Positions 12,821 through 15,206 of a stretch of DNA of 64,000 nt are shown here, piece after piece. The stretch spans positions 124,001 through 188,000 of the forward strand of contig NZ_JARXNQ010000001.1 in assembly GCF_029872055.1 (NCBI RefSeq), written 5' to 3'. How positions within the stretch are numbered: position 1 is the stretch's first letter; each line of letters begins with the position of its first letter. The translations under genes and the position numbers were made by a program. The notes below the pieces were generated by a model. The model was not told the origin of the DNA and did no database searches. It saw nothing but the letters and a program-made list of their open reading frames with translations. This stretch comes from Sulfurimonas sp. C5. GTDB taxonomy: Bacteria > Campylobacterota > Campylobacteria > Campylobacterales > Sulfurimonadaceae.

Positions 12821-13414
12821 CTAAGCTTCTGCACTTAGTAAAAATACTCCGAATTCACGGTGCGGTTTTTTAATTGTATTGATATTTTCAAAAGATACAT
12901 TTTTAAAACCGCAGTTTTCTACAATTTTACAAAGTTCCTCTTTATCAAATCCAAAGTGATGCACACCTTCATTATCTGAATGGAATGTTCCATCCTCGCT
13001 TTCTAGATCGGCAATAGCTAAAAACCCGTTTTTATTGAGGTTGTTTTTGATTGTAGTAAAAAACTTTTCAAGGTTTTCTACATGGTGTAGTGTCATTGAA
13101 CTGATAAGTCCGTCAAACTTCATATCAAGCGGAGTTGCTACAATATCTTGATGAATAGCTTCGATATTTAGTTCTGGAGTATTTTTCTCTTTGAGTTTTT
13201 CAAGCATTCCGCGTGAAGTGTCTACACCGTAAACTTTTTGTACTTTTTTTGCGATTTCAAATCCAAGTAGTCCAGTACCTACACCGAAATCCATCAGTAC
13301 CATGTCATCTGACAATTCAAAATTTTTTTCTATCGCTTCGGCAATTGTTTTGGCACCCTGAACTTGGATGTCACCTTTATCCCAATCTTTTGCTTTTTTA
13401 TCAAATGTACTCAT
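12821..13414 (-). CDS. Class I SAM-dependent methyltransferase
   Basis: This 197-residue protein has the Rossmann motif LMDFGVGTGLLGFEIA, the acidic ribose-binding turn YGVDTSRGML, and MTLHHVEN, which are typical of the Methyltransf_11/25 families. The substrate is unknown. The start at 13414 makes an ATGA overlap with the upstream hydrolase stop. A TTG 15 nt further upstream is possible but not needed. It is distinct from CmoA, although cmoB lies nearby. It probably forms a two-gene operon with the metallo-beta-lactamase-fold gene. Confidence 0.84.
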   Translation of the reverse strand: MSTFDKKAKDWDKGDIQVQGAKTIAEAIEKNFELSDDMVLMDFGVGTGLLGFEIAKKVQKVYGVDTSRGMLEKLKEKNTPELNIEAIHQDIVATPLDMKFDGLISSMTLHHVENLEKFFTTIKNNLNKNGFLAIADLESEDGTFHSDNEGVHHFGFDKEELCKIVENCGFKNVSFENINTIKKPHREFGVFLLSAEA

Positions 13415-14004
13415 AGTGTGCTTATCCAATAATCTGAATTTTGTTGTTCTTGTTTTATGGTTGTTGTACCGCCGTGACCAGGATAAACTGTTTTATCGTA
13501 GTCGAGTTCTTTGAACTTTTGAAGAGATTTTCTCATATCTTCAGGTGATGAATAGGGAAAATCGGTTCTTCCGATACTTCTCTCAAAAATAAAATCACCG
13601 CTAAACATAGCATCCCCTATCTCGATAGTACTGCATCCCGGACAATGTCCCGGAAAGTGGCGGAACTTGACTTTAACGCCGCCAAAGTCAAATTCTTGAT
13701 CGCCCACAACTTCTACATCAGGTGTTGAAGGGGGAAGATCAGGCATCCAGTTACTCCCTTGTAGTAGCATAACATCACCTTGGGGCGTGTAAAGTTTAAT
13801 ACCAAGCTCTTTTTGCAGCTCTGCATTGCTCCACACATGATCAAAATGTCCATGTGTATTTAAAATTGCAACGGGATTTGTAATATTTGCTTTTACCCAC
13901 TCTGTAGCACCTACACCGGGATCTATTATAAAATCTTTTCCATCTATTGTTACGATATAGCAGTTCGTTTGATATGGTCCCATAGGTTGCATTTTTATCG
14001 TCAT
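13411..14004 (-). CDS. MBL-fold hydrolase, glyoxalase II-like
   Basis: This 197-residue metallo-beta-lactamase-fold protein has the metal motif THGHFDH (H51, H53, D55, H56). Further ligands lie in HFPGHCPGC, the bridging Asp in SGDFIFE and a last His in YPGHGG. The compact size without the C-terminal glutathione-binding helices of GloB suggests the YcbL or ETHE1-like branch, which acts on thioesters or persulfides. The start at 14004 has a TGGAGC ribosome site. An upstream ATG at 14088 adds a basic, unlikely extension. Confidence 0.86.
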   Translation of the reverse strand: MTIKMQPMGPYQTNCYIVTIDGKDFIIDPGVGATEWVKANITNPVAILNTHGHFDHVWSNAELQKELGIKLYTPQGDVMLLQGSNWMPDLPPSTPDVEVVGDQEFDFGGVKVKFRHFPGHCPGCSTIEIGDAMFSGDFIFERSIGRTDFPYSSPEDMRKSLQKFKELDYDKTVYPGHGGTTTIKQEQQNSDYWISTL

Positions 14005-14132
14005 ATTTGCTCCATTTGAGAATATAAATAATGGTGTAACTATTTTTCTCTTTATATTAAAGAATTGTATAGTATTGATACTAATCAAACTCTTAATTTC
14101 TTTACCTTAACACAAACGTAAGATATAAAAAG

Positions 14133-14138
14133 TATAAT
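14133..14138 (+). promoter_or_regulatory. -10 element of the 29-residue miniprotein gene
   Basis: A perfect TATAAT lies 35 nt before the miniprotein ATG in a non-coding gap, in an AT-rich context. No canonical -35 is present; TTAACA lies 20 nt upstream. It gives the small gene its own transcript. Confidence 0.5.
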
Positions 14139-14172
14139 CACGCTTTTTAAATAATAAATACGGAGAAATGAT

Positions 14173-14262
14173 ATGGAACTTATGGCAATTGTTTACGGTG
14201 CTGTTTTAGTAGTTGGTGCAGGAATGTACTTCTATTTCAATACAGGTGATCGTGCTCACTAA
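14173..14262 (+). CDS. 29-residue single-pass membrane miniprotein, unknown
   Basis: A 29-codon open frame begins MELMAIVYGAVLVVG and ends in TGDRAH. Residues 4-22 form one convincing transmembrane helix. The C-terminus is short, polar and charged. Support for translation: a GGAG ribosome site 7 nt upstream, a perfect TATAAT promoter element, and a hairpin just after the stop. The size and shape recall small oxidase subunits such as CydX or CcoQ, but I see no sequence identity I would trust and no oxidase genes nearby. Neighbours are an MBL hydrolase (divergent) and a DUF455 gene. Confidence 0.62.
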   Translation: MELMAIVYGAVLVVGAGMYFYFNTGDRAH

Positions 14263-14271
14263 GTAAAATCA

Positions 14272-14295
14272 GGTATGATACTTTCGTATCATGCT
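14272..14295 (+). terminator. Stable hairpin after the miniprotein gene
   Basis: A stem of about 9 bp (one G-U pair) closes on a TTTC tetraloop, starting 10 nt after the miniprotein stop. There is no T tract, so it may be an mRNA-stabilising 3' hairpin rather than a classic intrinsic terminator. Confidence 0.4.
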
Positions 14296-14390
14296 CTACA
14301 AGCAAATAAACTATTTACTCCTACTCCCACCTACTATTTATTTACAAAACACATTCGCTTTTTTAAGAAAAGTTATACCATTATTCCTTT

Positions 14391-15206
14391 ATGGATTTTT
14401 ACAAAGAATTAGAACAAATTTTGGAATTAAAAACTCCCAAAGAAAAGCTGAAACAATTTAGAACTTTTTATAAAAAATTTCAAAAAGAGGAAATAGACTT
14501 TGTTTCACAAGAAAAAGCAAAACTTTTTAGTGAACCTGCATATGAGGGGTTTTGTCAAGTTGTAGCTCCTCAAAAAGTACCAAAACGCTCAAACTTAACT
14601 ACAAAAGAGGGGCAGATTAATTTACTTCATGCAGTGACACATATTGAGTATTCTGCAATCGATCTTGCTCTTGATGCTGCATATAGATTTCGTGGACTTC
14701 CTAGAAAATTTTACGAAGATTGGCTGGAAGTTGCCGATGATGAAGTGCGCCATTTTGAGATGCTCGAAGAGCTTTTAAATAAACTGGGATCTGCTTATGG
14801 AAAAATAGAGGTACATAATTCATTGTTTGAAGCAAGTTATAAAACACAGACTTTGATCGAGAGAATGGCTGTTGTACCGAGATATTTGGAAGCAAACGGG
14901 CTTGATGCAACACCGATGATTTTAGAAAAATTAAAAAATTATCCTAAAAACGATATGTTAGAAAAAATCAAATCAGCACTCACTATAATCCTGCAAGAAG
15001 AGATAGACCATGTTAAAAAAGGGGATGTCTGGTTCTCTTACGCCTGTGATTTAGAAAAAAAAGATACAAGTATATTTTTTGATATTATCCAAAAATATTA
15101 CCCTCGCAGTTTTTTGCGTCCAGATGATCTCAATATTGAGGCAAGAAAAGAAGCTGGATTTAGCTGTAATGAGCTCAAGCGTATGGCGAATAAAGAAGTT
15201 TGTTAA
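14391..15206 (+). CDS. DUF455 family ferritin-like protein
   Basis: This 271-residue, largely helical protein matches the DUF455 pattern, a ferritin-like group related to the tRNA hydroxylase MiaE. Likely di-iron ligands lie in HIEYSAIDLALD, DDEVRHFEMLEE and LQEEIDHVKKGD, spaced as two E/ExxH helix pairs. The ending FNxEARKEAGFSCNE-type segment is also typical. The biochemical role is unknown. It is transcribed with nadE downstream, 56 nt away. No signal peptide. Confidence 0.83.
   Translation: MDFYKELEQILELKTPKEKLKQFRTFYKKFQKEEIDFVSQEKAKLFSEPAYEGFCQVVAPQKVPKRSNLTTKEGQINLLHAVTHIEYSAIDLALDAAYRFRGLPRKFYEDWLEVADDEVRHFEMLEELLNKLGSAYGKIEVHNSLFEASYKTQTLIERMAVVPRYLEANGLDATPMILEKLKNYPKNDMLEKIKSALTIILQEEIDHVKKGDVWFSYACDLEKKDTSIFFDIIQKYYPRSFLRPDDLNIEARKEAGFSCNELKRMANKEVC

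Follow-up and report, generated by a model that had tools for sequence, protein, structure and literature searches.

A gene of about 200 bases, which has its own promoter and transcription stop and is not annotated, lies in the spacer that separates an MBL-fold gene from a DUF455 gene in Sulfurimonas sp. C5, and the miniprotein encoded by it represents a hitherto undescribed membrane microprotein family of the Campylobacterales, missed by the family libraries used. The window, i.e. the whole analysed stretch of 64,000 nucleotides, comes from the genome designated below as G000.

A self-contained unit in an enlarged spacer

The initial annotation described this locus as a stand-alone single-gene unit for a 29-residue membrane protein, and both conservation and hydropathy support this reading for a protein with a single span. 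The TATAAT hexamer, the GGAG ribosome site, the 29-codon frame and the 3′ hairpin are all found in their places (Table 1), and the spacer, which was said to be otherwise empty and 390 nt long, measures 386 nt.

Table 1. Features of the miniprotein unit and its surroundings (positions in the window)
Feature	Position	Strand	Basis and remarks
MBL-fold gene	13411-14004	-	left, divergent neighbour of the spacer
Enlarged spacer MBL-fold/DUF455	14005..14390	.	386 nt
Imperfect 21-bp inverted repeat, left arm	14027..14047	+	at the edge of the insert
Conserved upstream element TATAGTATTGATACTAATCAAA	14068..14089	+	alignments; centred ~62 nt upstream of the expected start of transcription
Promoter block TTAACACAAACGTAAGATATAAAAAGTATAAT	14107..14138	+	common with Sulfurovum-like copies (TTTAACGTAAATGTAATATATAAAAAAGTATAAT, closely similar)
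-10 box TATAAT	14133-14138	+	read directly in the window
Shine-Dalgarno GGAG	14162-14165	+	direct reading; CGGAG at 14161-14165, 7 bases 5′ of ATG
29-codon gene MELMAIVYGAVLVVGAGMYFYFNTGDRAH	14173..14262	+	ATG 14173, TAA 14260-14262; homologues, codon-position bias, hydropathy
Terminator-like hairpin GGTATGATAC-TTTC-GTATCATGCT	14272..14295	+	fold; stem recurs in 9 copies, loop varies
Imperfect 21-bp inverted repeat, right arm	14365-14385	.	at the edge of the insert
DUF455 gene	14391-15206	+	right neighbour of the spacer

The promoter block has no −35 box, and a generic promoter scan of the region gave promoter-like sites at a level not above chance. Eight frames of at least 20 aa overlap positions 13900-14500, and a 29-codon frame alone is cheap in such an AT-rich spacer. 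The unit nevertheless stands above chance, because promoter, ribosome site, frame and hairpin are kept together in its relatives, and because the wider family shows codon-position bias. A purine-rich ribosome site is retained in all copies of the gene.

The hairpin has a stem of 10 bp and a loop of 4 nt (−11.8 kcal/mol), and none of 200 shuffled sequences folded equally stably (z −4.5). Since a U-run is missing on its 3′ side, the window hairpin alone is not a textbook terminator. Such a run is present in the related genome G070 and in most Sulfurovum-like copies (TTTTTCT in relatives); it is lost in the window, where the stem is still common with the Sulfurovum-like ones. The proposal that all parts of a complete single-gene transcript are present therefore holds as far as the inventory and the relatives' stem, which is a terminator, are concerned, but not for the U-run of the window stem.

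The conserved element upstream of the promoter suggests that the miniprotein gene is regulated. Read against the consensus motifs of FNR and Fur/PerR, it holds a perfect FNR-type TTGAT-N4-ATCAA, which has one exact match in the window with 0.35 expected, while its counterpart in some Sulfurovum-like copies looks Fur/PerR-like (TTATAATGATTATAA in G617). Across the genome the FNR-type pattern was found 15 times, mostly within genes, versus 8 for the reversed pattern. Since the Sulfurovum-like counterpart resembles another type of site, assignment to a particular regulator was set aside. The same TTGAT-N4-ATCAA pattern was also registered at G000:C3:208813-208826 (L129), where it is flanked by the gene of a CRP/FNR-type regulator and by a divergently oriented gene, hemerythrin-like by reading.

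Homologues and selection on the frame

A single-sequence search in 60 relatives gave one full-length homologue, in G031, located at the same locus and having 66% identity. With a two-row profile applied to 135 genomes of the genus three carriers were found (G000, G031 and G070), i.e. two of 134 genus mates if the window genome itself is left out. The other matches of this search were weak ones inside longer frames or were due to chance. Conservation in close relatives, by which the initial annotation suggested judging the frame, thus fails as a general rule, though the frame is kept in the wider family: the gene is absent from 132 of 134 genus mates, because the unit most likely entered the ancestor of a three-species clade.

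The same profile, applied to 399 genomes of the order, detected a stand-alone short frame in G420, which belongs to another family (E 5.7e-16), and the gene in all four genomes sampled from a second genus within the window's own family (E 1e-9 to 3.5e-8); G031 and G070, both seed members, score E 2e-21. Weaker matches in a further, more distant family (E 0.001-0.02) are not significant from that search alone, because 399 genomes were scanned. Later searches, seeded with members of this distant family, find the gene in about 19 of its genomes, which is circular with respect to homology; these copies probably belong to the miniprotein family. In all homologues the frame is stand-alone and comprises 29-31 codons. 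Five of 78 genomes of the genus of G420 carry the gene. We call this genus Sulfurovum-like, inferring the name from the hisIE/purF locus and from the peptide common with Sulfurovum mangrovi, which is 83% identical over 29 aa to that of G420. The S. mangrovi copy corresponds to no annotated feature in its record, the gene table of which is incomplete by its own description. The record NZ_CP087125.1 (395 kb, labelled as a Sulfurovum mangrovi plasmid) contains hisIE and dapB and could be a chromosomal fragment. Nothing was found when genome and viral contigs were scanned for exact patterns, nor in a phage search. Matches to the first transmembrane segment of Na+/solute symporters and to a transmembrane segment of M23 peptidases (E 0.007-0.06) were rejected as fusions and taken as generic helix similarity.

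The frame is conserved as a protein across the family. For Sulfurovum-like copies pN/pS averages 0.12, and the differences are distributed over codon positions as 18/25/86, so that third positions account for 86 of 129 pairwise differences, the pairs not being independent. In the second genus, G486 and G384 are separated by 10 synonymous changes and 1 replacement, and in the distant family third positions also hold most differences (e.g. 14/20, 13/21, 14/23). The codon-position bias, absence of which had been put forward as a ground for refutation, is therefore evident in the wider family but weak within the three-species clade: the window compared with G031 and G070 alone gives pN/pS of 0.63-0.82 and an identity no better than under the neutral null. 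Since the codon signal of the nearest relatives is weak, the case for a gene rests on the wider family, where the frame is conserved, short and under protein-level selection, as is characteristic of stand-alone genes for small membrane proteins (<50 aa). Taken together these data leave almost no doubt that the miniprotein frame is a real gene.

Unrelated loci and a probable movement of the unit

The neighbours of the gene differ from lineage to lineage. These are MBL-fold and DUF455 genes in the window clade, mutS and infC in G420, hisIE and purF in other Sulfurovum-like genomes and in S. mangrovi, a lipoprotein-like gene and CYTH in the second genus, and prfB in the distant family, several of the names coming from reading of protein sequences rather than from family searches. 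In total five or more unrelated loci hold the gene, and the neighbours are often oriented divergently or convergently to it.

In about 21-22 compared genus mates only 39-51 nt separate the MBL-fold gene from the DUF455 gene (empty site), which points to an insertion in the ancestor of the three-species clade; in the three carriers the gap is 386-409 nt, and about 345 nt are inserted in the window. From this comparison a single arrival of the unit in that ancestor appears most likely. A spacer of 385 nt is present also in G072 (L048), where it seems to be filled by a different, unrelated coding stretch; this spot may therefore have taken more than one insert.

An alignment of nine sequences revealed that the promoter block and the terminator stem are common to both families, the stem being nearly invariant and the loops variable. 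Sulfurovum-like copies contain the promoter block, the ribosome site and a stem of the type GGTATGATAC-loop-GTATCATAC, mostly with the U-run. When the whole units of G031 and G420 were compared at the DNA level, the score was 126, whereas shuffled sequences reached at most 35; this similarity is largely due to the coding part. That of the flanks by themselves was borderline for this pair and came out more clearly when nine sequences were aligned. We consider it probable that the unit moved between lineages as a whole, and in the window clade it would have entered horizontally between the MBL-fold and DUF455 genes. Terminal inverted repeats were considered as a signature of a mobile element and rejected: the 21-bp repeat at the insert edges is a weak signal (p 0.005 in the window and 0.016 in G070), it is not seen in G031 and has no counterpart at other loci, and its right arm looks like the former promoter of the DUF455 gene. 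Since neither mobility machinery nor consistent terminal repeats were found at the loci examined, loss in most lineages combined with relocation may have produced the same distribution; horizontal transfer, inferred from the compared loci, is the simplest reading.

The product and its possible partner

One transmembrane helix is predicted at residues ~3-21, with the best 19-aa hydropathy ranging from 1.46 to 2.14 across the copies. A single hydrophobic helix, evident from hydropathy, is another feature of the small membrane protein class, and the product is very probably a single-span membrane protein. Because basic residues stand at the C-terminus of the peptide, this end is probably cytoplasmic, the span being placed in the inner membrane. 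No significant match to the peptide was found in Pfam, and Rfam gave none for the region. NCBIfam also gave none for the window peptide, while two distant members of the family were weakly similar to PsbY (photosystem II protein Y, best E 0.012). No PDB chain matched significantly; the best one was again PsbY (E 0.57), in a PDB copy that may hold no CcoM chain.

By analogy with CydX, CioY and CcoM, the single helix would be an accessory or stabilising subunit that packs against some larger complex of integral membrane proteins, and since the gene has no constant neighbour, the miniprotein would act in trans. Analogy thus leans towards docking on a larger membrane protein as the way in which this helix works. 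CioY, a 34-aa component of the bd-type oxidase CioAB of C. jejuni (PMC11955535), shares with the miniprotein and CydX the architecture of a small one-helix membrane protein and also comes from Campylobacterota, but its gene lies downstream of those for its oxidase, whereas the miniprotein gene stands alone in a genome without CydA. CcoM, a 36-aa subunit from Pseudomonas stutzeri (PMC10433244), belongs to the same size class, and its type of oxidase, cbb3, is present in all miniprotein carriers tested.

The likeness to small regulators of oxidases or transporters, noted in the initial annotation, is thus one of size only, and two specific roles are excluded. Neither G000 nor five other carriers contain CydA (PF01654), and KdpA (PF03814) is missing from all 32 genomes tested, carriers among them, which eliminates CydX/CioY-like and KdpF-like functions, respectively. 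KdpF resembles the miniprotein in its length of 29 aa and single helix; the difference lies in the absence of KdpA. The cbb3 oxidase is encoded in 32 of 32 genomes tested, CcoN being found in all carriers among them, and CcoN is the sole COX1-family protein of G000. Of terminal oxidases of the COX1-family and CydA kinds, this genome thus seems to have cbb3 only. A haem-copper or bd oxidase serving as the partner would therefore have to be cbb3 (CcoNOQP), since no other was found in the genome. This enzyme should work without the miniprotein in most species, because it is present in all 32 genomes and the miniprotein is patchy. As a docking partner cbb3 is accordingly the leading candidate by analogy, but a doubtful one. 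A loop of CcoN was considered as a mark of partnership and rejected: an insertion of 5-6 residues after NNMEIPT occurs in the five non-carriers that were compared within the window's family, but neither in the clade of the window nor in the second genus with the gene (L162-L168 versus L172-L174, L178, L179). The compared Sulfurovum-like non-carriers are also devoid of it, and the loop therefore marks no partner.

Service to another membrane system, either a transporter or a different respiratory complex, of which the miniprotein would be a small regulator or subunit, is an unlikely but serious alternative. It agrees with the size class and with a stand-alone gene having its own conserved upstream element, and at two loci of the distant family (L110/L111 in G207 and G233) the gene lies upstream of, and on the same strand as, genes that by reading are hemerythrin-, DUF2249- and NnrS-like. 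A constant neighbour is lacking, however, KdpA is missing throughout the genomes tested, and the window genome contains no second COX1-family enzyme and thus no NO reductase of this superfamily.

A type I toxin, i.e. a small hydrophobic membrane peptide silenced by antisense RNA, like TisB or AapA, would have a similar appearance. TisB-type toxins consist of 29 aa (PMC11449926), and the miniprotein resembles them in length, single membrane helix, stand-alone locus, patchy distribution and stable hairpin, and folding predicts that the ribosome site is partly paired within its mRNA (mean unpaired 0.19-0.49). It differs from them in being under strong purifying selection, and neither the promoter scan nor Rfam gave a sign of antisense RNA. 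In the distant family its locus is mostly fixed. The net charge of the peptide is near neutral. Type I toxins are usually cationic, and this interpretation is, on the whole, improbable.

A leader peptide or a small RNA, in which the frame regulates the neighbour or is incidental, would agree with the shortness of the transcript and the strength of its 3′ hairpin, but the neighbours vary and are often divergent or convergent, replacement changes are suppressed and the unit has its own terminator in relatives, all of which makes such an origin very improbable. Short frames abound in an AT-rich spacer, and the closest pair shows a codon signal that is weak, which might testify to a chance frame; its probability is practically negligible, since homologues with the same architecture occur outside the genus and also in another family (E as low as 1e-16 per genome).

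Returning to the docking helix, one can imagine a micro-gene, complete from promoter to terminator and about 200 bp in length, that is transferred horizontally as a unit among Campylobacterales and whose product would serve as an optional plug-in helix in a core respiratory complex encoded elsewhere, most likely cbb3; as a complete scheme this is a speculative and rather improbable combination. For Campylobacterales the finding itself adds a family of membrane microproteins that is not recognised by the family libraries used and is not annotated in the S. mangrovi record. Since different lineages hold the unit at unrelated loci and most close relatives lack it, its patchy presence provides natural pairs of genomes with and without the gene, from which it may be learned what such a helix does.
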